This document shows positions 5,264 to 62,555 of a stretch of 64,000 nt of DNA, piece after piece. Every line of letters starts with the position of its first letter. Position 1 is the stretch's first letter. The position numbers and the translations under genes are program-made. The DNA is from a virus: positions 124,001 to 188,000 of IMG/VR virus record IMGVR_UViG_3300035698_013060; one strand, written 5' to 3'. A model generated the notes under the pieces. That model saw nothing but the letters and a program-made list of their open reading frames with translations. It searched no databases and was not told where the DNA came from.

Positions 5264-5722
5264 TCAATCGTCCTTGGGGAAGCTGATTACCTCACCCCTG
5301 AGCTCAATGGGTTGATGGACTCCCCTGACCTTTCTGATCATGGTAATTTTTCCATCTACTACTCCATAGACCTCTTTCCAAACCTCGTCTGGTGCAGACT
5401 TGGAAGGGATAGAGCAAAATACCATGTCACTTCTGATCCGCCTGATAATCTCGATCTCGTTGGAGCCTTCGAGAAGTTTCACTGATACGATAGATTCTCT
5501 TTCATTTGAGATGAGTGATGCTGCCATGGTAGCAGCGTGTCTTGGCTCAACTTTAACGACACCTTCCTGAGTTTCTGTTTTCATAATTCTTAGGTTCTCC
5601 CTTGCGATTTCTCCCACCGTACTACGTTTTATCCTTTCCACAAGCTGGACGTATCCGTCCATGCTGAGTTCATCACCTGAGTTGTGGTAGGTATCAAAGC
5701 TGACGGTAAGTCTTTCTTTCAT
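5264..5722 (-). CDS. Hypothetical protein (152 aa)
   Basis: Unrecognised. Predicted alpha/beta protein with beta-strands near the C-terminus (DGKITMIRKVRGVHQPIELRG). Its ATG overlaps the primase stop (ATGA), so translation is coupled to primase. That position suggests a replication role by association only. Confidence 0.75.
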   Translation of the reverse strand: MKERLTVSFDTYHNSGDELSMDGYVQLVERIKRSTVGEIARENLRIMKTETQEGVVKVEPRHAATMAASLISNERESIVSVKLLEGSNEIEIIRRIRSDMVFCSIPSKSAPDEVWKEVYGVVDGKITMIRKVRGVHQPIELRGEVISFPKDD

Positions 5723-6741
5723 ACGATTGCTCTTCTGAGCTTGATCTCTTCTCGCTTCATACCGAAGTCCTTTCCGATCGAGTTGTAGTTAACCTCGATC
5801 TTTTCGTGTTTCAAGAGAGAGTCTTCTCTCTTGAGCCACCTGAAGAACGGTAGTCCAACCTCAGCGTCCGCGTAGAAGCGAACGTCTAGATTAAGGAAGC
5901 CCCTTGTCCTAACGGCTTTCAAGGCCGAAGCAAAGTACTTCCCACCGGCTGCTGCGAAGATTACGTCCCTTCTCTCCGCTAGATCGGGGAGTATGTGATA
6001 GGACACTCCGAGCAAATCCATGGCACCTTCAGTCATCACTAATATAACTCGTTCGGTCATGGCTTCAACCTCTTTTGGAACGGCAAAGAGGCTGTTGGAA
6101 AAGGGATCCTCACCATACAACATGCAGGCGTAGTATCTCTTCTTCCAATTTCCGGTTGTATCCCTGATTGCTAACTGTGAATGGTCTGATGAGAGGAATC
6201 CTATTCCTTCTCGAGCCAAACGCTTTATGGTTTTAGGTTCCTCCTCAAGTTTAAGCCCGTTCACCTTGATGAACCAGCCGATATCTGCGATTATACTGTA
6301 GTTCAGCCCTGCCTTGGATGGTGGAATACTGATACCTAACCTGTCCTCTACGTAGCCTAGCCTCCGGCAAGCGTCCCGATCCAGATGGATCGGGAGCTTT
6401 AACCGATGGAACCCTCCTCCAGTCTTCGGACGGAACTTTTTCCTAGCCCTAGATAGGTTGGCATGAGCCATCCTAAGGGCACCGTCATCGAAGCACCTGA
6501 GGTCTCTAACGAAGTCGGGGCTTACTGCCCCCTTCGCCTCACACCTCACGCACCTCCATATGAGGAACTCCGGGTTCTTCAACCGGATATTGAGGTGCGC
6601 ACTCATGGGGTTCTTCTGAGAATCCCCGCAATACGGGCATCTCACCGACGCGTTTCTACCACGCCGGTCCACATAGAGGACGTCGATCCTTTCTTTCAGC
6701 CTCTCCACGAAGCCATCGACGTCTTTTTGTTCCACGGTCAC
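5719..6741 (-). CDS. DNA primase (DnaG/Toprim type)
   Basis: Primase makes RNA primers for lagging-strand synthesis. An N-terminal zinc finger is clear (C35, C38, C64, C67 in CPYCGD and CVRCEA), as in CHC2-type phage primases. The Toprim core has the catalytic Glu in VILVMTEGAMDLL (E238), and the metal-binding acidic motif is FYADAEVG (289-296). At 340 aa it matches compact phage primases without a helicase domain; the helicase is encoded separately at 55-57 kb. The start is GTG 6741 or GTG 6735; GAGGA is better spaced for the latter. Confidence 0.9.
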   Translation of the reverse strand: MTVEQKDVDGFVERLKERIDVLYVDRRGRNASVRCPYCGDSQKNPMSAHLNIRLKNPEFLIWRCVRCEAKGAVSPDFVRDLRCFDDGALRMAHANLSRARKKFRPKTGGGFHRLKLPIHLDRDACRRLGYVEDRLGISIPPSKAGLNYSIIADIGWFIKVNGLKLEEEPKTIKRLAREGIGFLSSDHSQLAIRDTTGNWKKRYYACMLYGEDPFSNSLFAVPKEVEAMTERVILVMTEGAMDLLGVSYHILPDLAERRDVIFAAAGGKYFASALKAVRTRGFLNLDVRFYADAEVGLPFFRWLKREDSLLKHEKIEVNYNSIGKDFGMKREEIKLRRAIV

Positions 6742-6766: not shown

Positions 6767-8248
6767 TCAGATGCTTTCCACCAGCTTGAGTACCTCATCC
6801 GTTATCCGGTTTATGGGGTAAGTATTGATATCTTTCGCCGGAACTTCAATCTCGCCCATCTCTTGCTCGTAGCTGGGTAACTCGACCGATGTGTTCACGA
6901 AGATAGTCGAAATAAGCTTGGCCAACACATTGTTACGCGACAGGTTCCCTAACGCATAACGGTACTTGACCTCTGAGAGGTACTTATACGATTGGGAACC
7001 TAAAAGACCGTTCACGAAGTCCTTCGTAGAAACGATTCGGCGCTCCAGGTCTATACCATCCGGGAACGTCGTAGTAACCCACCGGGACAGGAACTCGAAC
7101 CCGTTCGCTCGAAGCCACTTCTTAAAGAACACCAACAGAATGGCATACTCGCCGAACCTAAGGTTATACATGGAGTGGTATCGTCCGACCCTCTTCGCAA
7201 AGAACAGGAACATCAGGTTTGTCTGGACGGTGTTAACCTGGACACCATCCTTGTAATACTCCACTTCTTCTTGGGTGATCTGGATCTTAGGGTGCCTGAG
7301 ACACGATACGATCAAGTCTGACAGTCTGGCTTCCGTGACCAGAGATGCGCTTTCATCAAGCCGGGCCAGTTGGAACTCAAGTCTCTCGAAGTTCGTAAGG
7401 CGTTCGTTCTGTGGGTCCGTTACCTCATACAGATTCTGAGGACGGTAGGTCAGGGCAAAGTTCGCCTTGAACTGATACTGTAGAAGGTTTTTCAACGTCA
7501 CGTGGAGATAACTCACCACAGGCCGCGTCGGTTCTAACTTCGGAATGATGTCGATCATCAACTTCCTGAAGAACTGCGAACTAATGATGTTGGGATCCAC
7601 TGCCATGTTCAACAGTAGGTTCCACATCGTCTTGTCAGAGTACCTTGTAGTACGAACCCGAGAAGACACGATCTTGAAGATCTTGTCCTTGATGTTGACC
7701 CCATCACGGTCTACAGCCTCAAAGCATGGTTCGAAGCACAGTAAGAAGAGTCGATCGTTGCGCCCGTGGCCCCTCTTGGACAGATACTCCGTGATCAACG
7801 GAACCAAAACCTTCATTAGGAAAGAGGCTTTCAGAACGATCTTCGAGTGTTCATCAGTAAACTGAAGCTCGACATTCGCCTTCTTCCTCTTTCTAGTCCC
7901 TTCGCCAGCCGGGACATAGACTTTGTCAATGAACTCTTCAGCTGCATCCTTGCACTCCCATACAAGTTTCCGGCAGTCCCGAGCTAGATCTTCTTCAGAG
8001 TACTCCGGATAACTTTCAATCCGGTGACGAATGCACATGAATTCAATGCCCGCCATCTCCGACTTGTCAAACGATACCTGTATGGATTCCTTGATTCTTC
8101 CTGCACACTCAGGCTTGGCGTATGACCTCTTCTTAGTGAGGCTCATGGTGTCAAACCGATCATCCCCCAACTTATGAATCTCGTTAAAGTTAATGAGAAT
8201 TGATTTCGCATCCTCATCTAATTCGCATACTAGTTTCATACCCTTCAT
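6767..8248 (-). CDS. Large hypothetical phage protein (493 aa)
   Basis: No family recognised. The protein is mostly helical, rich in aromatic and basic residues, with no membrane segment. The frame is open to 8509, but that part overlaps the 259-aa gene by almost 200 bases. The ATG at 8248 has a clear GGGAGA/AAGGA site and a candidate promoter 58 bp upstream, so I use it. Its place between primase and chaperonin gives no clear function. Confidence 0.8.
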   Translation of the reverse strand: MKGMKLVCELDEDAKSILINFNEIHKLGDDRFDTMSLTKKRSYAKPECAGRIKESIQVSFDKSEMAGIEFMCIRHRIESYPEYSEEDLARDCRKLVWECKDAAEEFIDKVYVPAGEGTRKRKKANVELQFTDEHSKIVLKASFLMKVLVPLITEYLSKRGHGRNDRLFLLCFEPCFEAVDRDGVNIKDKIFKIVSSRVRTTRYSDKTMWNLLLNMAVDPNIISSQFFRKLMIDIIPKLEPTRPVVSYLHVTLKNLLQYQFKANFALTYRPQNLYEVTDPQNERLTNFERLEFQLARLDESASLVTEARLSDLIVSCLRHPKIQITQEEVEYYKDGVQVNTVQTNLMFLFFAKRVGRYHSMYNLRFGEYAILLVFFKKWLRANGFEFLSRWVTTTFPDGIDLERRIVSTKDFVNGLLGSQSYKYLSEVKYRYALGNLSRNNVLAKLISTIFVNTSVELPSYEQEMGEIEVPAKDINTYPINRITDEVLKLVESI

Positions 8249-8305
8249 ATCCTTCTCTCCCTTCTGCGTTCGGTTATTGTCAAGGGCAATGCTGCCGCTA
8301 GCCCC

Positions 8306-8317
8306 TAATATATGCTC
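8306..8317 (-). promoter_or_regulatory. Candidate phage promoter motif (site 2)
   Basis: Minus-strand GAGCATATATTA, in the same class as the other CATAT(AT)TA sites. It overlaps the stop of the 259-aa gene and lies 58 bp before the ATG of the 493-aa gene, in the correct orientation. Confidence 0.45.
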
Positions 8318-9095
8318 ACCTACTCCGACGTTTCCCTGTTGAAGATTTAGCCTTCCTCGTAGATTTAGCTTTCCTCGTAGTTGACTTTGACACTCGCTTG
8401 GCAGGCCGAGCCGCCTTAGCCCTCTTTGCAGTCCCAGAAGGTCTTTCCCTTTGGATTCGTTTCTTAGCAGCCTCCCGATCCTTCGTTTTCTTTCTCTCAG
8501 CTGCCTCAATCTTGACCACTCGTTCGTACTTCCTGAAGATTGTCTCGAAGTCTTCTACAGTCTTCGAGACCTCCTTCTCTTTCAGTTCTTGTTTATCCTC
8601 ATGTTTGATAGTGTGAAGCCTGGCATGGAGAATGTACGTAGCAGCGAAGAAGAATGATTTATCAAAACCAAAGATTGCACTCGGGTTTGCAACAACTGGC
8701 TTCTGCTCGTACATCTCCTTGTCGAACTTGTCCTTCAACCACTCGATCAAGAACCAGCCTTTGTTAGCCACATAAGCGTGACCACTAAAGACAAAGGCGG
8801 GGTTGTTGCTAAAGAGTCTCACGTCAGAGTCCATGAGGGACTTCTTGGTTCCGGTTGCCCGAGCCTCGATTAGAACGTCCCACCAGAACCGCTTCTTCTC
8901 CAGAGTCTCAGAAGGGACTTGGATATAGAAGAGGGTAAGATCATCTGTCCTATAGACAGCAGCTCTGAACCTTTTACCAACCTTGATCATCTCCCCGAAC
9001 CGTCGGTTCAGATCATCAATGATTCGGTACCGAGCTGCCGTATGAGCAGTCCCCGGCCCGGTTGGGTTGGTCATGAGCTCTTTCAGCGTAGGCAT
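8316..9095 (-). CDS. Hypothetical protein with Lys/Arg-rich tail (259 aa)
   Basis: The first 170 residues look like a folded alpha/beta domain (WWDVLIEARATG, AFVFSGHAYVANKGWFLIEWL). The last 80 are a coiled-coil then histone-H1-like basic tail (RKAKSTRKAKSSTGKRRSR). A nucleic-acid-binding role is likely by composition, but the family is not recognised. The ATG has GGAGG six bases upstream. It follows the chaperonin gene by 19 bases. Confidence 0.8.
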   Translation of the reverse strand: MPTLKELMTNPTGPGTAHTAARYRIIDDLNRRFGEMIKVGKRFRAAVYRTDDLTLFYIQVPSETLEKKRFWWDVLIEARATGTKKSLMDSDVRLFSNNPAFVFSGHAYVANKGWFLIEWLKDKFDKEMYEQKPVVANPSAIFGFDKSFFFAATYILHARLHTIKHEDKQELKEKEVSKTVEDFETIFRKYERVVKIEAAERKKTKDREAAKKRIQRERPSGTAKRAKAARPAKRVSKSTTRKAKSTRKAKSSTGKRRSR

Positions 9096-9114: not shown

Positions 9115-10821
9115 TCAGAAAGGTCCAGCATTTCCGACAGTTCCTACGAACGATCCTGAGGACATGAACCGAGTACTTCCGGCCAGGAGACCGACAATAC
9201 TGACAGCCGTTCTCAGAGTCTCTATGTCTGCTTCGGTCGAACTGACGACCTTCGTTTCGTTGGCGGGTTCGAAATCCCCAGTGACCACGTTGTAAACCTC
9301 TTCGGAGTCAGTACACCTCTTGATGATCTCAGTACACTCAATTTCTCCGATTCCAGCATTCGCCATGATTCTGGCCACAACCTTGGTATAGGCTGTACCA
9401 ATAGCATGAAGGATTGAAGGACTACATCCTTTCTGGATTTCAGATTCAGGGACTTTGTCACCATCGCCGTAGATTCTGCTGATAATCTGCAGGACTCCCA
9501 TGCAGCAACCTGGAACGATCCCGCTCCGAGCAGCACTTTGCACTGCGAAGACAGCGTCCTCTACCAGGAAGGACGTAGTCCGACGCTCCTGAGGAGAATC
9601 TCCACCGACGAAGATGGTGATCATACCACTCTCACTCAGTCCAGAGAATCGGCGTTTGAGTCTCACCAGCTCTTCGATATTGTCCTTGACTTGATCTTCC
9701 TCGATATCCTTCAAAGCTTCCAAGATGAGAGCATGCCTCTCTTTGGCTGCATCGAAAGACTCAGGGGACATCCCGGAGAACAGAGATTTGTTCTCTTCGA
9801 TAGTGACCTCACCGACAACTCCCAAGAGCATATCGATCGTCTCGACGCTTTGGAATAGATCTTGAAGAGTAGCGTGTTCGTTGATGTCGAACGGAGTCGA
9901 TGACGTAAAAGCTACGAGATCATCGAACACCTCTCTGGCGTGGGGAGACTCGACAGCGATGTCCAACGGACAGATCACCAGCTTTTCCTGGAACTGAGCT
10001 TTGTTCTTGTATAGAAATGAGAAGAACATCTCGTCAAAAGCTGGAGCCATAATGACAAGGGCTTGGTTGGAAGCCATGCAGTGCTGCAAGAGTGGGCTGA
10101 ACATCCGAACATCGTCAGCCGTGAGCTTCTCTCTCGACATAAAGATACGGACGGCTCCGGCCGCTTTAAACTTCTCGCGGTTCTGATCGTTGGCGAAAGA
10201 GTGATGCATCATACCCCTGGGATGCTCGATACCACTCGACTCCTTGATAGAAGAGGATGGACCTGTAGCCTCCTTGACTGTGATAACTCCATGCCCACCA
10301 GACTTACTGAAGGCATCAGCAACGATAGTTCCGATTACCGGGTCGTTGTTGGCAGAGATCGTAGCAACATCCTTCAGGATTTCCTGGAATACTACGTCAG
10401 TGTATTCCCCTTTGGTGTTGTGCAGATTCACGATCTCGGAACACAGAAACTCCGAGGTCTGTTTCATCTCCCGTAGAGTGGCAGCATTGCAACCACCACT
10501 TTCAAGAAGGCTCTTGAGTAGATCAGCGGCTACCAAGACTGCTGTCGTTGTCCCATCTCCGACTGTCCTATTCAACCTGGAGGAAACCCTCTGAAGGAAA
10601 CCGAGGATTGTCCGGTCCAGCTCATTGTTGAACGCCATCTTACTCAGAACGGTATACCCGTCCTTGGTGCAGAAGTGCTGAAGCATTTGGTCCTGAATCA
10701 GGACATTACCACCACCCGGGCCGAGAGTTGCCCCTACTGCATCAGTCACATCATTCAGGACCATCACGATCCTCTCGGCTGTCTCTTCCTGCCCCAGCAG
10801 GTTGCTGTTTTTCTCTGGCAT
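9115..10821 (-). CDS. Phage-encoded group I-like chaperonin (GroEL-like, 568 aa)
   Basis: ATP-driven folding chamber subunit. Conserved ATPase segments are present: VGATLGPGGGNVLI (29-42), TKDG with D54, VGDGTTTAVLVAAD with D89, and VEDAVFAVQSAARSGIVPG with D422 (counterparts of E. coli D52, D87 and D398). Between them lies a divergent apical region (about 180-390). The Gly/Met-rich tail of bacterial GroEL is absent; it ends GTVGNAGPF. The length matches GroEL (about 550). No GroES-like gene lies in the window. Chaperonins of this kind are known in a few jumbo phages. It precedes baseplate genes on the minus strand, so clients may be virion proteins (inference). Confidence 0.93.
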   Translation of the reverse strand: MPEKNSNLLGQEETAERIVMVLNDVTDAVGATLGPGGGNVLIQDQMLQHFCTKDGYTVLSKMAFNNELDRTILGFLQRVSSRLNRTVGDGTTTAVLVAADLLKSLLESGGCNAATLREMKQTSEFLCSEIVNLHNTKGEYTDVVFQEILKDVATISANNDPVIGTIVADAFSKSGGHGVITVKEATGPSSSIKESSGIEHPRGMMHHSFANDQNREKFKAAGAVRIFMSREKLTADDVRMFSPLLQHCMASNQALVIMAPAFDEMFFSFLYKNKAQFQEKLVICPLDIAVESPHAREVFDDLVAFTSSTPFDINEHATLQDLFQSVETIDMLLGVVGEVTIEENKSLFSGMSPESFDAAKERHALILEALKDIEEDQVKDNIEELVRLKRRFSGLSESGMITIFVGGDSPQERRTTSFLVEDAVFAVQSAARSGIVPGCCMGVLQIISRIYGDGDKVPESEIQKGCSPSILHAIGTAYTKVVARIMANAGIGEIECTEIIKRCTDSEEVYNVVTGDFEPANETKVVSSTEADIETLRTAVSIVGLLAGSTRFMSSGSFVGTVGNAGPF

Positions 10822-10842: not shown

Positions 10843-11304
10843 TTACGCAATGTCGAAGTCAGTCTCTTCCACGAGAGGATCCTCGTGCCCGGTGATCTTG
10901 ATCAGGAAGTATCCCGTGTCTATATCCAAGACTACACTCCTGATTCTCGCCTTGCTCTTAAAATTCTCTATCTGAGTCTGGATCCACTCAACGATTAGAG
11001 AAGATTCCATCACTGGGATGGTGAAGATCAAGTTTTTGAATTCATGACTTTCAGCGTCATAAGGGTCTAGGTCGACTTCTTCATGAAGTCTTAGACTCTT
11101 GAATCCTTCTCCCACTTCTACTTCCCCGTGTTCCAAGCCCAGCGACTCCTCGATCCATACGAGGAACTCGCTGAGCACTTGGTAGTTCCTGTAGAACTCC
11201 AGACTGTCAGAATAGTTTTGGAGGTCCAGTTCTGGATCCTCTCCGTCAGATACATCAGTCAACTTCTTCAGGTATGGCATTCTTTCCTGGTGAGTCGTCC
11301 CCAT
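10843..11304 (-). CDS. Hypothetical protein (153 aa)
   Basis: Acidic protein, probably alpha/beta, with a C-terminal beta-rich half (SVVLDIDTGYFLIKITGHED). The frame is open to 11367, but ATG 11304 has GGAGAAAGG upstream and is the better start. Its position between the gp51-like gene and the chaperonin, and the EWIQTQIENF/IRSVVLDI pattern, resemble gp25-type baseplate folds weakly; I do not assign it. Confidence 0.75.
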   Translation of the reverse strand: MGTTHQERMPYLKKLTDVSDGEDPELDLQNYSDSLEFYRNYQVLSEFLVWIEESLGLEHGEVEVGEGFKSLRLHEEVDLDPYDAESHEFKNLIFTIPVMESSLIVEWIQTQIENFKSKARIRSVVLDIDTGYFLIKITGHEDPLVEETDFDIA

Positions 11305-11422: not shown

Positions 11423-11626
11423 TTACCTCCTCTGCTTCCTAGCGTTAGCGGCTTCTTGCCGCTTACGCTCGCGTTCCTGATCTTCCATGATCTCACGCCG
11501 CCTCTTGTCCTTCTCTTCAAGCAACCGAGATCGGGCCTCTCCTAGCCGCTGGAGAGTTCCGATCTCATAGCGTTCAAAGACGTCTTCGAGACTAAGCTGC
11601 CCCTCGAAGACGTCCATATAGAACAC
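11423..11626 (-). CDS. Putative baseplate hub assembly chaperone (gp51-like, 67 aa)
   Basis: A short, highly charged helical protein (LLEEKDKRRREIMEDQERERKRQEAA is a near-continuous charged helix). It follows the gp26-like gene directly: the GTG start shares bases with that gene's TAG stop (TAGTG). In T4-type phages gp26 and gp51 both serve hub assembly. The assignment rests on this context plus size and charge, not on a motif. An internal ATG at 11617 is an alternative start; neither has a good ribosome site, so coupling is likely. Confidence 0.6.
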   Translation of the reverse strand: MFYMDVFEGQLSLEDVFERYEIGTLQRLGEARSRLLEEKDKRRREIMEDQERERKRQEAANARKQRR

Positions 11627-13161
11627 TACGTCGTCTGATTGTCGCTTGTTGAAGGCGTCGAGGTCTGCTCCATCCGAAAAACCAATAGCCGCTCAATGTC
11701 GATATTGATGTCTCCGATGTCCTCTTTACACGAAGGACATGGCATAGCCTTGAGACGGTGAGAAACTGAGTACTCACTTTCCTTCTCGTTGATGCATCTG
11801 TTCAATTCATCAGCATCTTCGGAAGGAAGATCACAGACAACCCTGAACTTCTCAGCCCAGTCTTCGAGAGGGGCGAACACGGGTTTTCCGGTCCTCCTGA
11901 TTGCTTCGATGTTGGGCAGGAACACGTCCTTAATATATATCATCGAACCAAAGGTCTCCCTCTGGCCTTTGATATTACTTGCACTGGTGTAGAAGCCAAG
12001 CATGTTCAAGTGGTCTTGAAGACTGGCCGTACGGACATCGATGACCACTTTGGACTTCGGGAGGATGATTCTTTTCGTCCTGTGGACCAGTGAACGCCCA
12101 AGGAGTTCCATGGGCTTGATCTGGGACTTAATGACCTCATCGATCCACGCAAAGATGGCATCGTCATGTACTTTGATGAACGACGCGGGTTTGACCTTCA
12201 CTTGCACCGGCCTGTGACACTTACCACATGTTACTGTGAATTCAGTGTCGCCTGGATAGGTCTGACAGAAGATGCCAAAGAGAAGCGTATCGAGGTCATC
12301 GAAGGCCGTGACCTTCAAGAACTCAGTAAACGTCATTTCACCAACACTGCAAGGGCCGATCTTGTCATGGACGGTGGAGTAGAACCGCTTCCGCTCATTG
12401 AGTGGGTCAGCACTACTGTTTCGTAGGACATCCTTGTCTTTGAACGTCAACCCTTTCATTCCAGCTGAGTAAGCCGAACGCAGAGCGATCACTTGGTATG
12501 TTGCATCGGTTTCGAGAGCGGTCTGAGCAAACTTGTTCCGTTGAATCAGGTTCGCTTCCTGGATGTCCAGCTGACTCAGATCTACTACGAGAGAATCGAG
12601 GATTTCTCTGTCAGGATTCGGGATAGAATCCCCACCTGATTTCTTTTCAGAGTCCTTCTTCTCTTGGGCTTGTTGATTGGCTGTATCGTATGCAGCTTCC
12701 AAGAAGTTAGGAGTCCCTTCCGGAGCCTTAACGATCTTTTCAGGCTCGGGTGCCAATTCCAGTACCGGAGTAGTATCTTTCAGTCTTTCATCGGATTTAA
12801 CTACCACTTCTGGCTCTCCCTTTTTCGGTTCGATTTTTGTCCCTGGACCAGTCTCTACATCAATCACTGGACCAGTCTCTACAGTAGTCTCTATACCGGT
12901 CTCTACGACAGTTCCTGATTCCGGAAGGTCTTCAACCACTGAATCTCTCAGAGATGCTTCAGCCCGGGCCCTCGCAGTTTCCATCGGGTTGACAGCAGCC
13001 TCTCCATCTTCAGGGTACTGTACTGTACTCGAAGATTCGGCTCTGGCCTTAACCTCTAATTCCTTGCGCGTCTTCTCGAGTTTCTTCCGATCAACCGGAG
13101 GCTTGCGTCTCATTGGGGCTTCTTCGGAGGATCCTTGAGTGTTACTTGCTTCGTTTGCCAT
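11626..13161 (-). CDS. Baseplate protein, T4 gp26-like (511 aa)
   Basis: The C-terminal 300 residues show the pattern of the T4-type baseplate (gp26-like) family: a CxxC pair in FTVTCGKCHRPVQVKV (about residue 310), a helical middle, and a second CPSCKEDIGDINIDIE pair near 475. The two pairs probably bind zinc. The first 200 residues are a disordered Glu/Thr/Val-rich extension with repeats of VETGxxxxVETGP, unusual for the family. The ATG at 13161 has GGGAGA upstream; the frame stays open to 13200. Neighbours (gp25-like before, gp51-like after) support a baseplate role. Confidence 0.72.
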   Translation of the reverse strand: MANEASNTQGSSEEAPMRRKPPVDRKKLEKTRKELEVKARAESSSTVQYPEDGEAAVNPMETARARAEASLRDSVVEDLPESGTVVETGIETTVETGPVIDVETGPGTKIEPKKGEPEVVVKSDERLKDTTPVLELAPEPEKIVKAPEGTPNFLEAAYDTANQQAQEKKDSEKKSGGDSIPNPDREILDSLVVDLSQLDIQEANLIQRNKFAQTALETDATYQVIALRSAYSAGMKGLTFKDKDVLRNSSADPLNERKRFYSTVHDKIGPCSVGEMTFTEFLKVTAFDDLDTLLFGIFCQTYPGDTEFTVTCGKCHRPVQVKVKPASFIKVHDDAIFAWIDEVIKSQIKPMELLGRSLVHRTKRIILPKSKVVIDVRTASLQDHLNMLGFYTSASNIKGQRETFGSMIYIKDVFLPNIEAIRRTGKPVFAPLEDWAEKFRVVCDLPSEDADELNRCINEKESEYSVSHRLKAMPCPSCKEDIGDINIDIERLLVFRMEQTSTPSTSDNQTT

Positions 13162-13228
13162 GTCGGAGTATCTCCCGTTTTTCAGTTGGATTCTTCGCAA
13201 TTACCATGTTCCGCGTGGGATTTCCGCG

Positions 13229-13660
13229 CTAAACGAAGAACTCACCGTGAGTCGTTCCGTCGTCTTCTTTGAAGACTTGGTATATGATCGCCTTTACGCC
13301 ATCGAGGGCTTTCTGTAAAGTTATCACTACATTAAGGACGCTGGTGGCTCTCTCGATTGTCTCAGCCTCAGCCTTCGCTACCGTTACCTTTTCGATGAGG
13401 ATATCAGGTAGATATTCTCTCAACTGAGTCGAGATCCTAAGCTCAAGCCTAGCGATGAGTCCGTCGTCTAAGATCTCGAATAGGTAAGTTCCAATACCAA
13501 CCCCCATGTCGAAATTATCGACACAAGTTCCTGGTTCCATCAGCAATAGCACTTGAGCTCTGGCTGCTATAGCCTGAAGCCCACTGTGATATGCACTTCG
13601 CCTGAAGCTGTCGATTGACAATCTCAGCTCCGGCATGACTTTCGTCCTGTCTCCGGCCAT
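13229..13660 (-). CDS. Baseplate wedge protein, gp25/GPW family
   Basis: gp25-type proteins connect the baseplate wedge to the sheath and have a lysozyme-like fold. The signature is here: a small 143-aa alpha/beta protein with EPG (42-44), then DMGVGIGTYLFEILDD (51-66) and two further strands. It is first in the rightmost minus-strand block before the divergent nuclease gene, immediately upstream of the gp26-like gene. The start has AAAAGGAG at good spacing. Confidence 0.75.
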   Translation of the reverse strand: MAGDRTKVMPELRLSIDSFRRSAYHSGLQAIAARAQVLLLMEPGTCVDNFDMGVGIGTYLFEILDDGLIARLELRISTQLREYLPDILIEKVTVAKAEAETIERATSVLNVVITLQKALDGVKAIIYQVFKEDDGTTHGEFFV

Positions 13661-33538: not shown

Positions 33539-36500
33539 TCATCCTTTCGCGATTCTGAGTATGGTCCCAGGAACTGCGAGGGAAGCGTTAGCTGTTTTAT
33601 CCCGACCTTCAGCATCTGATTGGCCCGGACCTTGTCCTCCGACAAACATATTGGGTCCAGACGACATAGAGCTATCTGTACTTCTCTTTTCACTCCCAGC
33701 CTCTGAGCTAGTTACCTTCAGGTTAACCGGGATTCCACTCTCGATGTTATCTGCCGTCCTATTGGTGTTGCTGGCGATAGCTTCAAGGAGTGTCAGCATC
33801 TTACTCTGATCGCCAACTATTGAGCTAGCGAGCATCTTAGTCTTGATGTCTTCCTTACGACTGAACATTTCTCTCGGAGACATCTCTACCGTTGGCCTGT
33901 TTGCCGTCGTCGGCATTTTAACAACCGAGACAGGAGTGGCTGTCGGAGAACGCTTCGGGATAGGTCCACCAGATGTACTAAGCTTCGATGACCCTAACAA
34001 CATATCCGGTTTTATCATACCCGGAGTCTTGTCCATGACAGGCTCGATCTCAGAGGCCTCTTCAGGACTCTCTGGCATACCCATCTTCCCAAAACCAGAC
34101 TGCATCTTGTTCCACTTAGCGTCCTTTTCAGCCTTGTGTTTCCTAAAGGTCTCTTCATCGACTGAAACGCCGTTGATTATGAAGGTTTTGCTGACCCTGC
34201 GCTTAACTCCATTTTCTGAAAGACCTCTGGTCTCAGGTTTAGCAACTGACTCAGAAGCACCTGTCGCCTGTTCATCGCTCTTCGGACCTGATCCCTTGAG
34301 CCTAGCAACGGACTCATTGAAGGCGGCAGTATCTTCTTCTCCGCCCTCTTCTTTACCAAACAGCTTGTTCCAGATGCCCTTGATAGCATTCTTAATTGCA
34401 TCCTTCAACATGCCGGGGATTTTAATGAAGAAGTCTTTGATCTTGCCCATGAACCCAAAGAACTTCTCCTTGATGTTAGCAACGAAGTCCTTGCCCATAT
34501 TCCAGATAGCTTTACCCCAGTCCTTGAATGCCCCGAGAATCTCTCCAGGAGCCTTGGCTATATTGCTGACCAGATTTTTTCCTGAGTCGAGTAGACCCTT
34601 TCCAAAACCTTTGATGAAAGCCCCAGCTGCAGCAGACTTCTGTTTGGTCATGTCCCAGGCTTTGCCGACAGCTTCCTTAGACTTGGTAAGTGCGGCCGAA
34701 GCCTTGTCCTTGATCTTATCGATCCCAGTCTTGTCATCTTCACGCTCTTCCTTATCGATCGTCTTACCAGCAGCCTTGGCTATGAGGTCGATCCTTCTCT
34801 TAGAGTAACTACTGATCTTCGAAGACTGTTGCAAGAGCCTGAGCTTATCCGGAGGAAGCTTACCGATGGCATCCCAATCCAAGACTTTCCACTTGCCCCA
34901 CCCGAAGGTATTCTTGAGTACTCCGACTTTCTCCAGTCCAACAGCAAGAGCATCACCCTCTTCTTCACTCTTAGAACCAGTAAGCCAACCATAAAGTTCA
35001 GAAATACCGTAAGTTGGTATTGCAGCACTACCAACGATACGAATAGCTTTGAAATCATCGGACTCTTTATCCTTGGCATCTTTATCGGCCTTTATAGCCT
35101 CTTTGGACTTGTCTTCTTCTTCCTTCTCTACGGTGCCCTTGGATTTGGCGATAGCTGCCATTTTCTCTTTGGTGGCCTTACCAAACTTACTCGACTTCGA
35201 GAGGAGATCTAGTTTATCTCCAGGTAGATTGCCGATAGCGTCCCAATCAGTGACTTTCCACTTTCCCCACCCAAGCGGATCTTTAACGACCCCTTCAGTA
35301 GTCAGAGCCTTAGCTAGTGCATCAGCTTCCCTGGTTTCCTTACCTCTGAAAAGCCACTTACCTATACTCGGAACTATCGACATAATGGATTTCCCAGCCA
35401 TCCATGCCAGCTTGAGACCAGCAATCGGGCTAAAGACTGCCTTGGCGAGCTTTTTACCGATACTTTCCTCTTCATCGAGGATAGCTTGTTCTCTCTCTTC
35501 TTCTTTGACAAATTCCCCAAACCCACGCTTCTTAGCGATATCTTTGAACTTATCTTTAGTCCTACCACTGAATAGGTTCGACCTAGTAAGCTCCATCAGA
35601 TTCGCTGGAGGCATCATCGCTACTGAATCCCAGTCCATGACCTTGTATTTGCCTGGGCCGAACGGATCTCTAACGACACCGCGTTCTTTCAGAGCTAGTA
35701 CAAGTGTATTGGCCTTGATCACTGATTCATCTGGAGCCATCACGAGTTTCCGAGCCTGCATTATCCCGCCGATTCCAGCGCCGACAGCAGCTCCTGCGGC
35801 AGTACCGGCTCCAGGGATGATCGATCCCAAAGTAGCACCGATCATAGCTCCTCGACCAGTAGATCCGACCATTCCAGCAGCCGCTTCACCAACCCCACCC
35901 TCTTTAGTACGAAAAACCTTTGCCAGAGTGCCTCTCTTCTTAGCACTCCCAGTCAACATTCCAGATATCATCCCCTCAACTTCACCAACTCCAGCTTCTT
36001 CAGAACCCCTGTGTCCTGTGAATCCACCTCTGGCGAGTTCTACACCAGCAAGAATCGCAGACAGAGCAGCTCCACCGCCAACCTTAGTGAGACCCTTACC
36101 CATGGTCTTAATGCCACCCTTACCAAACATCTTAAGTAGAGCACGCTCACCAGCCCGTTTGGCTCCATACTTCATTATACTTCGGCCTGCTCGCCAAACA
36201 GCTTTCCCCTTCCGACCAATGTTCCTGATTCTTCCACCTTTCCTCTGAGCTGGAACGCCAACGGTATCTAATACATCATCGTCAGCATCATCGTCAGCGG
36301 CAGTCATTCCCCCTATAGCTGCAGTGTCAGCTAAGTCTCCACTATCAGTAACATCTCTCTCTTCCTTGACCTTATCACGACGTTTAGCAACTCTAGCTGC
36401 CCTTGCAGCTTTTCTGTCCTTGAGCTTGGCGTCCATCCTAGTACTATCACGATCTCTGTCAGCCTCTTCAGCAATAGCCTTTCTCTCACTAGACTCTGCC

Positions 36501-39500
36501 TTTTGGTCCATAGTCTCGTCTTTTTCGTCAGCTGCTCGCTCTGTATCAGCCGTCCTGGTAACTAACGTTACTGATCTGACGATCTCAACCTGTTGGACTG
36601 AAGTAGCTTCTGCTTTTGTCGGGGTAGAAGTCTCTCTTGGAGAAGGATTGGTCATAGACGCAGAACCGCCAAACACGGCGCTAGCTCCTTCAGAGATCGC
36701 AGATGCAGTTCCTCTGACAGCCCTTCCTATGAAACCTCCGATTCTTCCCAAGACCCCCGGACCACTAGAACCAGCTGAGACTTCATCTTCACTCAAATCT
36801 CCCAAGCCAGGTCCTTCAACTCCGTACATCGGAATGGCTACTGAACCTATAATCTTAACCAGCTGGACTTTACCCCCGCTAGCAAGACCGCTTACAGCAT
36901 CAGCTCCTATTCCAAAGATACTACCAATACCTCGACCGAGGGCTTTGACACCATCCCAGAGTCCGTTAACGACCTTAGTCACACCGCTCCATAGGGCTGG
37001 AATGACATCATCCTTCAAAGCACCCCATAGACCTGTAGTAACAGCCTTTACACCATTCCAGAGTTCCGGAACTATAGCTTGGGCTGCACTCCACATCGTC
37101 TTAGTAACAGACACACCAGCATCCCAGAGACCCTTAGCGGCTATTTCAGCACCCTTCCAAAGAGTCTTCGTTATGGCAGTGACACCTTTCCATAGCTCAG
37201 GTACTACAGTTTGGACAGCCTTCCAAGCTTCTCCCGTCACCGTCTTGGTGACGTCCCATACTTCTGTCGCGATGGCCTTGACCCCTTCCCAAATATCCTG
37301 AGCTCTGTCCTTGATCCATGAGAATGAATCAGTAACGATGTCTTTAATCTTGTTCATCAGACGCTTCGGAGCATCCAGGACAGCCTGAATTCCATCCTTG
37401 AGCTTTCGTCCAATATCCTTGAACGGAGAAGTCAGCTTATCGAACATTCGACCGAAGAAGCCCCGATGCTTCCCAAGGGCACTCTCATCGACTTCATCCT
37501 TGTCAATGCCAAGCTTCTTAACGAGCCTAGCGAGATTCTTTCCAGTACCTGACAAGTGATCCTTCATGAAGTTGAGCATATCTTTGGTGTGACGCTCAGT
37601 CTCCACCATAGAACCAAAACCTTGAGCAGGACTTGCAGTTGTTCCGGATGCAGAAGCTGAAGTAGCACTTGCAAGAGCCGGAGCTTGAGCAGCAGGAGAA
37701 GCTTTAAGAGATGCTTCCTTTCTAGCTTGTCTAGCATCAGCTTTTTCTTTGAGTTTGATATCCAAATCTGCATCTCTAGTGGCTCTCGATGTCCTACGCC
37801 TCTCATCTCTATCCACTCTAGAAGTGCGACGATCTCTAGCAGCAGCATCTCTTTCAGTTATCCTAGCAGCAGCTATCGAAGCTCGCTCCTTAGACTGGGA
37901 ATCAATACCCGTCTTTTCTACAGTGGAAGTAGTGCTAGTATCTTGTTTTTCTGTCGGGATGGGTGGAGGCTTGGCGGATTCAGTAGCAGTAACTTCAGCA
38001 GTAGGTTCGTTTACTGTTCCATCCTTAGAAGTGACTTTTCCAGCCAACTTATCAGGAACACCCATACGCTTCTGCCATTCAGATTGAGCTTCTTCCGTTC
38101 TAGTTTCCGTCAGCTTAGGAGCAGCCTTCTCAGTTGAGGTACCACCGACTCCCATATGCTTCTGCCATGCTGTCTGAGTTTCCGTCCCTTCAGGTTTAAG
38201 AGACGTAGCAGCTCTAGCAGCAGCACCCTTTCTAGCGGCCTGTTTCTCTCTAAGGGCTGCAGCCTTCTCTTGTAAGAAGGAAACCCCCCTCTTCATTATT
38301 CCTCCAAGCCCTTTACCAAGCCAGTCCCGGAAGCTTTTTATATGGGCCCCGAAAGGCTCTAGGAAGTTCTCTTTGATCATCTCTCCGAACGGCTTACCGA
38401 AACTAGTTTCGAACATGGTACCCATGAACTCACTAACGGCACTCATCCCTTCCTTGATACCGTTTTTCACGATATCTGTCAGAGAGTTGAATCCTGCCTT
38501 CATCTCCTCCATGAATGGGTCAAAGACCCCCTTCATCGGATCAATGACGTTCTTACGAGTCCAGTCGGCGGTAGCTGTCCATGTCTCTGTAAAGAAAGTC
38601 CTGGCGGGATCTATGATATTCTCACCTACCCAGACGTTCAGAGCATCGAATTTTCCACCCTCACCGAATAGACCACCATCACCAGTCTTTTCGTTACCGA
38701 AGAGGTAATCAGTGGCCTTGGTGTAAATGGCTGTGATCTTTCCTTCTTCACCAAAGAGGTAATCTTGGACCTTCTGACTTCCAAGAGCATAACCGGCCCC
38801 GGCTCCAATGATCATGCCGACCGGACCAAATCCAGCCAGACTTGCACCGATACCGCCCAGGCCTGCGCCCCACAATTCTCCCTCATGATCCTTCATCCAG
38901 ATCTTAGCTTTACCAATAACTCCAGGATCACCTTCTTCGTCTGGATTACCGAAGAGCCAATTCTGGACTTTGTCAGTCTGTAAGGCATAGCCCGCACCAG
39001 CCCCGACAATCATACCAACAGGACCACCGAACATATACCCGGCAGTACCGCCGCCAAGCATTTTAGCGTTACCTTGAACCCAGTCTCCAGCCTTCTTGAT
39101 AATCCCTGGATCTCCATCATCACCCTCTTTACCGAACAGCCAGTTCTTAACCTTGTCAGTAGTCAAGGCATAGCCCGCACCAGCTCCAACGATCATGCCA
39201 ATGGGACCTCCGATGATACCAAGAGAAGCACCTCCACCAAAGGTAGCAGCTACTTTACCCATGTGCGGTTGGGCTTTCTTCCAAAACTTGTTAAGAGCCC
39301 CTTCCTTCCCAAAGAGAGACTCTCTAACGTTAGTCAGAGCTGTACCAGTTTGTTTCAAAGCTCTTGAGGCGAAGTTACTAACTGGATCTAGGACTTTGTC
39401 CTTCATCCAAGCTTTAATACCCCCACCTTCTTTGTCACCAGACCACAGTTCACTGAGTCCTTTACTAACGCCTTCGAAACTTCTTTGTGCGAAACCCTTG

Positions 39501-42208
39501 ATTGGATCCCATACTTGGGTCTGAAGAGAGTCTTTGAGACCACCTTTCTTAGACCAGAAGTCAGTGATAGGTTTGAAAGCCCCAATCACTGCATCAGCAC
39601 CACCACCGTCCTGAGACCACCAACTCTTGATCCCATCGACCATACCAGTCCACTTATTCTTAATCCAATCAAAAGCAATCCGGACAGGTTTAGTCATCCT
39701 ATCCATCAAGGAACCACCCTCTGGAGCATCAGGTTTGCCGAAGAACCATCTACCAACTTGATCTCCAACTCTATCAGTCATGTCAGCAATGGCTTGAATT
39801 GGATGCAAGAGCATCTCTTTGATGGACATCCTGTCGGCTTCTCGACGATCTTCTTGTTCCGTGTACTCTTCGTTAGGACCGATGGCTTCAGCAGCCTTAT
39901 TAACAGACGTTACTCTATCTAGTACTTCTTGTGCGTCTTTACCGTCCTTGAAACGCTTGTCGATCTCTCCAGACTTAGTCTTACGGATCTCACCGGTTTC
40001 AAGCTTGGCTTGGATTTCTTTCGCCTTCTCCATATCAGCCTTCTGATCTTGGAAGAAGGAGAGTAATGGATCTGGAGGAGGCTCTGGAAGAGCAGCGATA
40101 GAGGCTTCAGAGGCCCTATTGATCCTACCCTCTCTAGCAGCAGCTGAGACATCAATCCTCATCGCTCGACCATTTTTATCTCTGATCGTCGGCTCACCGC
40201 CATTTGCGCGGACAATATCCCTGAGAAGTCCGGGGATAGTATGGATGATAGCGCTTCTAACGTCGGCATCAAACGGAACTGGCTTGACTCTCCCGACGGC
40301 TTGCGCTGAAGAGACACTTCCCCCGACTTCGTAGGCCTGGATGTCACGGGAAGACCTGATGCTAGATATTTCTTGCTCCAGATCCCTGGACTCTCGGACA
40401 ATCTTTTTCTCGTCTTTGTCAAGCCCACCCTTAGCTTGTCTCTTCCTAAATTTGTCTTCCCCAGTCTGCCTTCTGATATCGTCCAATCGTCTCTGGGCTT
40501 CGATCTCCCTGGAAGAGACCATACTGGAGTCAGACATTACTTGTCTGAAAGCAGAGCCCTTGATATCACTTCCAACCTTATCACCGAATTCTGCACCGCT
40601 AGCCCTGAAGGCAAGTTTCTCTTTTTGTAACTGTGTCAGTCCGGAGACCCCAAGGCCCTTAACAGACTTGTTCCAAGCATCTACGAGCTCGACATTCAAG
40701 CCCGGAGCTGAAAGATCCCCGACAGACTTACCACTAGCAGCCATCTCAGCGCTACGAATCTTTTCCAGTTCTTTTTCAGCTACTTTTCTCTGTTCTGGAT
40801 TGAATTTGAAGGAATCCAGGACATTCCTACTCATATCTGTAGTAAAGCCTACACCACGTGTGGCGGCACTTCTCTCAACATTTAGTTGATCGACGACCTC
40901 TGTTCGAGTCCTCATCTTCCCGGTACCGTAGTCGAAGATCTGTTCATCTCCCTCAGTACCACCATTAATGGCATTGAGAATAAGGGAGAGGTACTTCGGG
41001 ATCACCTCAGTGATCGCCTTTTTGGTATGGGCATCGAACGGAACAGCTTTATCCAGAGTCCCCAATCTAGCGTCTACCCTGGTGTCGTCTCTGTCCATCC
41101 CGAGAAACCTACCAGCACCCCTCTTCAGAGTGTTGAGTACGCCATCATCAGTGATATTAGCCCACTCTTCAAGCTGAAGCATAAGTGTGGCCGGGAGTCC
41201 ACCGATGATGTTATCCATCCTCTGGAATGACTTCTGTAGACTTTCCGGGAAGAATTTCTCAGCGAGGGAGTCCATTGCCAACTCGAGAGGATTCGTGAGC
41301 ATGTCCTTGAACATGTTCATATCTTCGAGTGTAGTCTTGATCCTATCACTGACAGTCCTGACATAGTTTTCCGGACTGAAACCACCGTACTCAGTAAAGA
41401 TCTTATCATACTTGGTTTCAATACCATCACTAGCTCTGCCATCAACAGTCAAGCCAAGTGCCCCTAGATGGGCCTGAGATGCCCTATTGATCTCCTGAAG
41501 CTGGACTGCCATCTCGGAGATACCCGTCATAAGGGAACTCCGGTGCGAATCCAAACCAGTCTGATGGTTGTAGCCCGCTATTACTGCATGTTTCTGTTCT
41601 TGAATCAGACTCCGGATATTGTCCAAGATCGTATTGGTTGCAGTGATTCCTCTACCAAGAGCTCTACTGCTACCAATGACGGCGGAGGCTTGTACTGTAC
41701 CAGCAGCACCGATAGCCGTACCGACCTTACTTCCAAGTGAGGAAGCTTCCGATGAGATGGAAAACTTGTTGGAGACGTTAGTCACTCTGTTATCAGAGAC
41801 TTGAACTGGAGTAGAAGAATCTCCTCCGAAGTCTCCCATATCAATGTCGCTGTCACCCCCGTCGTCGCCTCTACCTACCATATCAGAAGTATCAAAATCT
41901 GACATCATATCGTCGTCGAAACCGAGAGCGGAAGCCATAGCGGCTCCCTTTTCCTCTTCCGACCTATAGAACTTCCCAGTACGAACGGCCTCCGTGGTGT
42001 TCTTCACCATGGCAGCCCCTACGTCCTTGACGACGTTCTCTTTGATCAGGCTTGTGACTTCGGATGCGACCTCTTTGACACTATCGCCCGAGGAGAAGAC
42101 CTCCTCGATCAGCTCGGCTGTTTGACCGAACATTTGAGTCTTGATCGCCCCGGCGGCCGCAAAGCCCAAACTTTTAGCAGCGTTCTTTGTAAAGCTGAAC
42201 GCACCCAT
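33539..42208 (-). CDS. Tail tape-measure protein (2889 aa)
   Basis: Tape-measure proteins set tail length, acting as a ruler inside the tube. This one is extremely long. Trp recurs every 11 residues over about residues 1640-1760 (WKAVQTVVPELW, WKGVTAITKTLW and so on). Three Gly-zipper blocks (GPIGMIVGAGAGYAL) lie near 993-1141, and three DWD blocks (GVVKDPLGWGKWKVTDWDAI) near 2170-2460. Long coiled-coil and Ala/Lys/Glu-rich stretches connect them. No signal peptide is present. The next gene (454 aa) is structural. Using about 0.15 nm per residue, the tail would be roughly 430 nm. CTGGAGAT precedes the ATG. Confidence 0.92.
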   Translation of the reverse strand: MGAFSFTKNAAKSLGFAAAGAIKTQMFGQTAELIEEVFSSGDSVKEVASEVTSLIKENVVKDVGAAMVKNTTEAVRTGKFYRSEEEKGAAMASALGFDDDMMSDFDTSDMVGRGDDGGDSDIDMGDFGGDSSTPVQVSDNRVTNVSNKFSISSEASSLGSKVGTAIGAAGTVQASAVIGSSRALGRGITATNTILDNIRSLIQEQKHAVIAGYNHQTGLDSHRSSLMTGISEMAVQLQEINRASQAHLGALGLTVDGRASDGIETKYDKIFTEYGGFSPENYVRTVSDRIKTTLEDMNMFKDMLTNPLELAMDSLAEKFFPESLQKSFQRMDNIIGGLPATLMLQLEEWANITDDGVLNTLKRGAGRFLGMDRDDTRVDARLGTLDKAVPFDAHTKKAITEVIPKYLSLILNAINGGTEGDEQIFDYGTGKMRTRTEVVDQLNVERSAATRGVGFTTDMSRNVLDSFKFNPEQRKVAEKELEKIRSAEMAASGKSVGDLSAPGLNVELVDAWNKSVKGLGVSGLTQLQKEKLAFRASGAEFGDKVGSDIKGSAFRQVMSDSSMVSSREIEAQRRLDDIRRQTGEDKFRKRQAKGGLDKDEKKIVRESRDLEQEISSIRSSRDIQAYEVGGSVSSAQAVGRVKPVPFDADVRSAIIHTIPGLLRDIVRANGGEPTIRDKNGRAMRIDVSAAAREGRINRASEASIAALPEPPPDPLLSFFQDQKADMEKAKEIQAKLETGEIRKTKSGEIDKRFKDGKDAQEVLDRVTSVNKAAEAIGPNEEYTEQEDRREADRMSIKEMLLHPIQAIADMTDRVGDQVGRWFFGKPDAPEGGSLMDRMTKPVRIAFDWIKNKWTGMVDGIKSWWSQDGGGADAVIGAFKPITDFWSKKGGLKDSLQTQVWDPIKGFAQRSFEGVSKGLSELWSGDKEGGGIKAWMKDKVLDPVSNFASRALKQTGTALTNVRESLFGKEGALNKFWKKAQPHMGKVAATFGGGASLGIIGGPIGMIVGAGAGYALTTDKVKNWLFGKEGDDGDPGIIKKAGDWVQGNAKMLGGGTAGYMFGGPVGMIVGAGAGYALQTDKVQNWLFGNPDEEGDPGVIGKAKIWMKDHEGELWGAGLGGIGASLAGFGPVGMIIGAGAGYALGSQKVQDYLFGEEGKITAIYTKATDYLFGNEKTGDGGLFGEGGKFDALNVWVGENIIDPARTFFTETWTATADWTRKNVIDPMKGVFDPFMEEMKAGFNSLTDIVKNGIKEGMSAVSEFMGTMFETSFGKPFGEMIKENFLEPFGAHIKSFRDWLGKGLGGIMKRGVSFLQEKAAALREKQAARKGAAARAATSLKPEGTETQTAWQKHMGVGGTSTEKAAPKLTETRTEEAQSEWQKRMGVPDKLAGKVTSKDGTVNEPTAEVTATESAKPPPIPTEKQDTSTTSTVEKTGIDSQSKERASIAAARITERDAAARDRRTSRVDRDERRRTSRATRDADLDIKLKEKADARQARKEASLKASPAAQAPALASATSASASGTTASPAQGFGSMVETERHTKDMLNFMKDHLSGTGKNLARLVKKLGIDKDEVDESALGKHRGFFGRMFDKLTSPFKDIGRKLKDGIQAVLDAPKRLMNKIKDIVTDSFSWIKDRAQDIWEGVKAIATEVWDVTKTVTGEAWKAVQTVVPELWKGVTAITKTLWKGAEIAAKGLWDAGVSVTKTMWSAAQAIVPELWNGVKAVTTGLWGALKDDVIPALWSGVTKVVNGLWDGVKALGRGIGSIFGIGADAVSGLASGGKVQLVKIIGSVAIPMYGVEGPGLGDLSEDEVSAGSSGPGVLGRIGGFIGRAVRGTASAISEGASAVFGGSASMTNPSPRETSTPTKAEATSVQQVEIVRSVTLVTRTADTERAADEKDETMDQKAESSERKAIAEEADRDRDSTRMDAKLKDRKAARAARVAKRRDKVKEERDVTDSGDLADTAAIGGMTAADDDADDDVLDTVGVPAQRKGGRIRNIGRKGKAVWRAGRSIMKYGAKRAGERALLKMFGKGGIKTMGKGLTKVGGGAALSAILAGVELARGGFTGHRGSEEAGVGEVEGMISGMLTGSAKKRGTLAKVFRTKEGGVGEAAAGMVGSTGRGAMIGATLGSIIPGAGTAAGAAVGAGIGGIMQARKLVMAPDESVIKANTLVLALKERGVVRDPFGPGKYKVMDWDSVAMMPPANLMELTRSNLFSGRTKDKFKDIAKKRGFGEFVKEEEREQAILDEEESIGKKLAKAVFSPIAGLKLAWMAGKSIMSIVPSIGKWLFRGKETREADALAKALTTEGVVKDPLGWGKWKVTDWDAIGNLPGDKLDLLSKSSKFGKATKEKMAAIAKSKGTVEKEEEDKSKEAIKADKDAKDKESDDFKAIRIVGSAAIPTYGISELYGWLTGSKSEEEGDALAVGLEKVGVLKNTFGWGKWKVLDWDAIGKLPPDKLRLLQQSSKISSYSKRRIDLIAKAAGKTIDKEEREDDKTGIDKIKDKASAALTKSKEAVGKAWDMTKQKSAAAGAFIKGFGKGLLDSGKNLVSNIAKAPGEILGAFKDWGKAIWNMGKDFVANIKEKFFGFMGKIKDFFIKIPGMLKDAIKNAIKGIWNKLFGKEEGGEEDTAAFNESVARLKGSGPKSDEQATGASESVAKPETRGLSENGVKRRVSKTFIINGVSVDEETFRKHKAEKDAKWNKMQSGFGKMGMPESPEEASEIEPVMDKTPGMIKPDMLLGSSKLSTSGGPIPKRSPTATPVSVVKMPTTANRPTVEMSPREMFSRKEDIKTKMLASSIVGDQSKMLTLLEAIASNTNRTADNIESGIPVNLKVTSSEAGSEKRSTDSSMSSGPNMFVGGQGPGQSDAEGRDKTANASLAVPGTILRIAKG
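34840..35690 (-). repeat. Three DWD repeats in the tape measure
   Basis: Three copies of a roughly 30-residue motif recur about every 125 residues: PFGPGKYKVMDWDSVAMMPP, then PLGWGKWKVTDWDAIGNLPG, then TFGWGKWKVLDWDAIGKLPP. Each is followed by a helix ending in a Ser/Thr-Lys pattern and preceded by a Gly-Val (GVV/GVL) turn. Confidence 0.75.
36930..37290 (-). repeat. 11-residue Trp repeats in the tape measure
   Basis: About nine consecutive Trp residues are 11 (once 12) residues apart, for example WSAAQAIVPELW and WNGVKAVTTGLW. Eleven-residue spacing matches a helix with one face per three turns, a known tape-measure feature. Confidence 0.8.
38785..39230 (-). repeat. Glycine-zipper triplicate in the tape measure
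   Basis: Three copies (about 63 residues apart) of a GGP(I/V)GMIVGAGAGYAL plus KVxNWLFG unit, residues about 993-1141. Small-residue zippers like this often pack or span membranes, so this part could be the segment that inserts during DNA ejection. Confidence 0.75.
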
Positions 42209-61095: not shown

Positions 61096-61395
61096 CTATC
61101 CTCCAGTAATTACAGTTCCAGCTCCTGTTACTACGTTGCCGATGAAACACCCTACGAAGAGATCTCCTATTCGACAAACGTTACTCCCTTCAGCTATGAC
61201 TGTAGAAGAGCCGGTGACCATGATCCCGACATGCCCACAGAATCCGAGCATAACATCTCCGATCCTAGATGTAGGCATCCCCTCAGCAATCACTGTTCCA
61301 GCTCCAGTTACGAGCACACCGACCATCCCTATGCAGCTCTTATGACAGCAGCAGACGCCGACACCGAGATCGGATATTCTTGCCGTTGGTGGCAT
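61096..61395 (-). CDS. PAAR-repeat spike-tip protein (99 aa)
   Basis: PAAR proteins form the sharp metal-bound cone at the tip of phage and type VI secretion spikes. The repeat layout is clear: ARISDLG, a Cys-rich CCCHKSC loop (15-21), GTVIAEGMPTSRIGDV (residues 33-48), CGH (53-55), then STVIAEGSNVCRIGDL and GAGTVITGG. Cys and His could bind Zn or Fe. At 99 aa it is a single-domain tip. It overlaps the radical SAM stop by TGATG and is last in the spike operon. Confidence 0.85.
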   Translation of the reverse strand: MPPTARISDLGVGVCCCHKSCIGMVGVLVTGAGTVIAEGMPTSRIGDVMLGFCGHVGIMVTGSSTVIAEGSNVCRIGDLFVGCFIGNVVTGAGTVITGG

Positions 61396-62555
61396 CAGTT
61401 ATCCTCTTTTTCTTCAGTGTTTACAACGCAGAACCTTATCTCCCCCTTCTTCCTTCCACTTTTCTCGAAATTCAGTATTCTATTGACTACTGTTTCATAA
61501 CCCCAAGTTCCAATCCCAGTCTCTCTACTGACCTTCCCGATCTCATCTAGGGTTCTCTTAGCAGCGTCTAGAGTTTTTGGAGTCCATCCGTCACCACACG
61601 GATCCAACCTTCCGAGACCGTTTTCTTCGAGCCACGGACCTCTGTAAGGTGCAAAGCACACTGACTTCATTCCGTTCTTAGCACCCCACCTCATAAGGTC
61701 TGGCCCATCCGTCAACGTCTCGGTTGTGATAAGACTTCCAAGAAAGATCCCGTGATTGGGGTCCCTGCGAAAGATTTCTTCCAGATTCCCCTTGACTATA
61801 CTAAGATCTTTCAGTCTGTGAGTCTTGTAATGTTCAGGGTCTACGGTATCAAGACTCACGGATATCCTTGTTAGAGGACCATTCCTCACCCATTTCTCCC
61901 ACTTCTCTGGAGTCATCCCGATCCCATTAGTAATCGTCATTATCTCGGTCCCCGGATTGGGAAGATCCAAGACTTTTTTGATATAGGAGTCAGGATGAGC
62001 AAAGAGGTCCCCACCCATGAACTGTGTGTACCTCACATTCTTGAATACCGGTTTCAGCTTCTCAAAGTTCTTATCGTTCAGTTGATTCTTGACGTTAGGA
62101 ATGTAAGTGGACCAACAGAAAGGACACGCTGTGTTACACTTGCGTCCTATGAAAAGGAAAACCATGAGAGGCTGTGTATCGATCTTTGATTTTCCAGAGA
62201 GAATACTCTTCTCTATCTCATCGATCTCTGGACAATTTTTAAATCTCTTACGAAGTAAGTCCATTTGCTCTTTGACCGTTTGTCCGTTACCTCTACATAT
62301 CGGACAAGACATCTCAACAGGACAGGCTTTCTTGTATCCAACTGCCAACATCTTCTCACGAAACTTGACGAACCCTTCACAATTCCATTGTACTTCACCG
62401 CTGTACGGACCACCCTCTAGGTATTCGTGCTTAACTAGATCAGGAACGTAACAGCAGGGACTGACTCCCCATCCACCAATTCCAAGATATGTCCATGGGT
62501 CAACACAGATGTCTCTCCTCAAACTGAGATCTTCAGTACTTGCTTCGTTAATCAT
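61395..62555 (-). CDS. Radical SAM enzyme with N-terminal SPASM-like cysteines (386 aa)
   Basis: Radical SAM enzymes use a 4Fe-4S cluster and S-adenosylmethionine to start radical chemistry. The cluster motif is C140, C144, C147 in GRKCNTACPFCWS (CX3CX2C), followed by a GGD motif (181-183) and later barrel strands (TEIMTITNG, RISVSLDTV). The N-terminal 110 residues have many Cys (C17, C34, C35, C59, C78, C84, C87), and CVDPWTYLGIGGWGVSPCC strongly resembles a SPASM auxiliary-cluster motif, normally found C-terminally, so this may be permuted. The gene is coupled to PAAR and DUF6527-like genes, so a spike or tip protein is a plausible substrate (inference). Confidence 0.85.
   Translation of the reverse strand: MINEASTEDLSLRRDICVDPWTYLGIGGWGVSPCCYVPDLVKHEYLEGGPYSGEVQWNCEGFVKFREKMLAVGYKKACPVEMSCPICRGNGQTVKEQMDLLRKRFKNCPEIDEIEKSILSGKSKIDTQPLMVFLFIGRKCNTACPFCWSTYIPNVKNQLNDKNFEKLKPVFKNVRYTQFMGGDLFAHPDSYIKKVLDLPNPGTEIMTITNGIGMTPEKWEKWVRNGPLTRISVSLDTVDPEHYKTHRLKDLSIVKGNLEEIFRRDPNHGIFLGSLITTETLTDGPDLMRWGAKNGMKSVCFAPYRGPWLEENGLGRLDPCGDGWTPKTLDAAKRTLDEIGKVSRETGIGTWGYETVVNRILNFEKSGRKKGEIRFCVVNTEEKEDN

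Follow-up and report, generated by a model that had tools for sequence, protein, structure and literature searches.

The question raised by this locus is how a GroEL-like protein of a phage could work if no GroES-like partner is encoded beside it. We analysed a stretch of 64,000 nucleotides (hereafter the window), taken from a 241,176-bp virus record (bases 124001-188000). An earlier note, made from the letters alone, had pointed to a phage chaperonin at 9115-10821 that may work without a co-chaperonin or borrow the GroES of its host. The reading we prefer, with a probability of roughly 0.85, is that the product is a working, ATP-driven AR9-type chaperonin, which would form a seven-membered, probably single ring and use no GroES lid.

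The chaperonin gene and its neighbours

The chaperonin ORF is intact and starts with ATG, and a Shine-Dalgarno-like GAGGAG is located just 5′ of the start codon. The 568 aa product scored 101 bits against Pfam Cpn60_TCP1 (PF00118, cut-off 34.3 bits), and the PHROG 5725 profile 'chaperonin groEL' matched it over its full length (residues 6-554, 318.6 bits, E 1.4e-94). At the level of sequence, the product is an intact chaperonin of the AR9-type phage family (PHROG 5725), and the earlier note was right to call it a phage chaperonin. The gene and its neighbours are given below; the AR9 chaperonin, named gp228 in papers, is BI022_gp227 in RefSeq.

13229..13660, minus strand: baseplate wedge protein, gp25-like (phrog_261, E 3.3e-9; 34% to the AR9 'base plate wedge subunit')
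11626..13200, minus strand: protein of unknown function, phrog_18873, syntenic with AR9 BI022_gp230 (profile and synteny)
11423..11626, minus strand: small gene, 67 aa, likely counterpart of AR9 BI022_gp229 (shared start motif, by eye)
10843..11304, minus strand: small gene, 153 aa from the ATG (longest ORF to 11367), counterpart of AR9 BI022_gp228 (position, weak similarity)
9115..10821, minus strand: groEL-like chaperonin gene, AR9 type, 568 aa (PF00118, phrog_5725, AlphaFold2, Foldseek)
8316..9095, minus strand: conserved gene of unknown function, phrog_20045, counterpart of AR9 BI022_gp226 (profile and synteny)
6767..8509, minus strand: non-virion RNA polymerase subunit, phrog_25005 (profile, synteny, AR9 annotation); the listed TTG probably lies upstream of the true start
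5719..6741, minus strand: DNA primase, counterpart of AR9 BI022_gp224 (profile and synteny)

The order endonuclease, gp25-like wedge, phrog_18873, two small genes, groEL, phrog_20045, RNA polymerase subunit and primase is syntenic with AR9, and much the same block was found in BpSp, Machias, MarsHill and the viral contigs L024 and L025. Similarity of the two small genes to their AR9 counterparts is weak. For 10843..11304, the similarity was seen in the alignment with the counterparts from AR9, L024 and L025, while pairwise BLAST alone was not significant. By eye, the 67-aa product shares with AR9 and MarsHill the initial motif (L/M)D(L/V)F(D/E)G and a charged helix after it. The first base of its gene coincides with the final stop-codon base of the phrog_18873 gene, and the one-base overlap suggests that translation of the two may be coupled; in AR9 their counterparts also lie between the baseplate wedge gene and groEL. 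The translation of 11626..13200 contains two CxxC pairs.

The position next to baseplate genes, as originally described, holds only in part. A gp25-like gene (with a Pfam GPW_gp25 score just below the cut-off) lies 2.4 kb upstream, but three genes are placed in between and the immediate neighbours of groEL are unknown genes. The AR9 late-promoter motif AACA-N6-T[AG] has one match upstream of the block, at about 13713, where approximately 0.1 would be expected, and this lends weak support to a putative AR9-type late promoter.

Fold, relatives and comparison with GroEL

The structure predicted by AlphaFold2 displayed a full chaperonin fold with high confidence (mean pLDDT 89.3, pTM 0.83), and this fold is that of group I (GroEL) chaperonins. 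Foldseek searches with the model recovered Hsp60/GroEL structures (E about 1e-33, TM up to 0.77), and among viral models the top match was the GroEL model of AR9 (E 1.9e-40, TM 0.81). A group II chaperonin (thermosome/CCT) was rejected, as the built-in lid formed by a long apical helical protrusion is absent: the alignment with GroEL contains no apical insertion longer than 6 residues.

Relatives of the protein were found in 255 of 50,697 phage records. Phage GroELs, which had been described as rare, are uncommon but not extremely so. The best relatives come from the Bacillus phages AR9, PBS1 and Goe21 (31-32%), followed by BpSp, Listeria phage LPJP1 and Staphylococcus jumbo phages. Among viral contigs, the only closer relatives were fragments of the same sequence, namely L019, L020 and L104, which are IMG/VR contigs from a single sample (3300022882) and showed 100% identity in the proteins compared. 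A maximum-likelihood tree calculated from 52 chaperonins placed the protein as sister to all eight AR9-type proteins (support 100/99) and united it with AR9, apart from the other phage and bacterial chaperonins, which provides the comparison suggested with the original observation. Attraction to the long-branched EL and OBP sequences was rejected as a cause, since the tree rebuilt without them gave the same placement (100/100). Recent acquisition from a bacterial host was also rejected, as the protein clusters with the phage proteins of the AR9 type, away from bacterial GroELs. Given its long branch (2.27 changes per column), we regard the protein as a deep sister lineage of the AR9 type and not as a close relative of AR9.

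Regarding the ATP site, D52, D87 and D398 of E. coli GroEL align exactly with D54, D89 and D422, the three ATPase aspartates that had been reported as kept. K53, T91-T93 and S156 are kept as well. Two positions of the nucleotide site are changed: G415 of GroEL is replaced by C439, and the ribose-contact residue D495 by S527, where the AR9-type sequences shown have N. Identity to E. coli GroEL was 33% in the intermediate, 19% in the equatorial and 17.7% in the apical domain, so that the apical region, noted earlier as divergent, is indeed the least conserved. R197 of GroEL is kept as R202, but its salt-bridge partner E386 aligns with P410. The E386-type residue seems to be lost here, although AR9 keeps the pair as R202-E402; the OBP chaperonin also lacks the R197-E386 pair (PMC9598537).

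The C-terminus ends with ...GTVGNAGPF and lacks the GGM repeat, in agreement with the reported absence of a Gly/Met tail; some bacterial GroELs, e.g. L172 in the same alignment, have no such tail either. The single-ring GroEL variant SR1 carries substitutions at R452, E461, S463 and V464, and all four positions differ in the alignment with GroEL (R452 to A, E461 to G, S463 to I and V464 to E). A single ring does not follow from these changes, because the EL chaperonin also lacks the SR1 contact residues and yet forms double rings.

In summary of these comparisons, the protein resembles group I GroEL/Hsp60 in its three-domain fold and ATP-site residues, and differs in overall identity (about 20%), in its changed apical groove and ring-ring contacts, in the missing GGM tail and in the lack of a GroES gene in the record. 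With the AR9 chaperonin (31% identity over 97%) it shares the gene block, the clade, the kept ATP site, the lack of a GGM tail and a genome without GroES, and it differs in having P410 in place of E402. It also branches outside all other AR9-type sequences. The chaperonins of the Pseudomonas phages EL (gp146) and OBP (gp246) are likewise GroEL homologues reported to be co-chaperonin-free, but they form a separate deep branch with no common gene block seen, and the double rings of EL split with ATP.

Co-chaperonin and mode of action

No GroES-like partner had been seen in the window, and the search of the whole 241,176-bp record, which may be incomplete, gave the same answer: Cpn10 (PF00166) and PHROG 3188, 13932 and 931 had 0 matches at E <= 10. 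As a positive control, the PF00166 search was applied to 14 records, where it detected T4 gp31 and a second phage GroES. A GroES hidden elsewhere in the record was rejected on the basis of these four profiles and the working control. PF00166 had no match in six whole AR9-like records (AR9, Goe21, BpSp, LPJP1, MarsHill and Machias), nor in the records of EL and OBP.

The phage chaperonin could still borrow GroES of the host as its lid, as the earlier note had offered. In its ATP site and three-domain fold it resembles group I chaperonins, and among the GroES/substrate contact positions of the GroEL apical groove, F204, L237 and N265 are unchanged. However, substitutions occur at most of the other contact positions, several of them to polar or charged residues (L234 to S242, Y203 to S208, Y199 to M204, L259 to F267, V263 to Y271 and V264 to K272), and most hydrophobic residues of the GroES-binding groove are gone. 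Moreover, the EL chaperonin fails to bind E. coli GroES (PMC7185714) and that of AR9 requires no co-chaperonin, and we consider borrowing from the host improbable. A lid or cofactor of a new fold could instead be encoded by a small gene beside groEL, in particular 10843-11304, which occupies the position of bacterial groES and has counterparts beside groEL in AR9, BpSp, MarsHill, Machias, L024 and L025; the phrog_20045 gene is likewise found directly downstream of groEL in every AR9-type locus compared. The product of 10843..11304 had no match in Pfam or PHROG, and its low-confidence model (pLDDT 51.7) displayed a long helix in a helix-rich mixed alpha/beta arrangement with no GroES barrel, on which grounds it was rejected as a GroES. 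As the AR9 chaperonin refolds endolysin without any partner, we give very little credence to a phage-encoded lid.

A relic that is decaying or has been repurposed, and no longer acts as a chaperonin, would fit the long branch and the changes E386 to P410 and G415 to C439, which, together with D495 to S527 and only 31% identity to AR9, are also the points that may speak against a working AR9-type chaperonin. On the other hand, the 568-aa frame is intact, the three catalytic aspartates are kept, the gene block is conserved and the predicted fold is confident, which leaves the relic hardly any plausibility.

The AR9 chaperonin forms a single seven-membered ring that needs ATP but no co-chaperonin to refold denatured endolysin; to date, only open states of phage chaperonins have been observed (PMC9598537). 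The groEL gene of AR9 is a late gene (PMC5312081). Because of descent, an AR9-like mechanism is the best explanation for the working, lidless chaperonin proposed here. Seven subunits would form a ring, which is probably single if the ring number follows AR9, and the apical domains of the open ring would bind non-native phage proteins late in infection, e.g. endolysin or virion proteins. In the equatorial domains, ATP would then be bound and hydrolysed, which would move the apical domains and release the substrate, with no GroES lid used. By analogy with AR9 we infer the ring number, ATPase and folding activity, late expression and substrates. That the protein works without a co-chaperonin, as suggested originally, is very probable given its descent within the AR9 group and the absence of GroES here and in six AR9-like records.

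The implied novelty of such a chaperonin does not stand, as co-chaperonin-free function was already published for AR9, EL and OBP, on which the wider question of protein folding by a chaperonin whose cavity stays open is already under study. What may be new is modest, namely the deep sister lineage and the apparent loss of the E386-type residue. Since this salt bridge appears to be lost, comparison with AR9 would reveal which allosteric contacts are dispensable to a lidless single-ring chaperonin.

Other genes of the window and the host

The other genes of the window include those for a tape measure, tail sheath, virion proteins and a DnaB-like helicase, a content consistent with a large contractile-tailed phage. 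The GC content of the window is 47-50%, which, despite the common gene order, is far above that of AR9 (roughly 28%). The host is probably not a low-G+C Bacillus, and the co-chaperonin-free chaperonins of the AR9 type would extend to a deeper lineage in a phage of much higher G+C than AR9. The C-terminal half of a very large ORF of 2889 aa (33539-42208) matches tape-measure families and a region near its N-terminus a tail-fibre family, and a radical SAM domain protein (phrog_1802) is encoded at 61395-62555.
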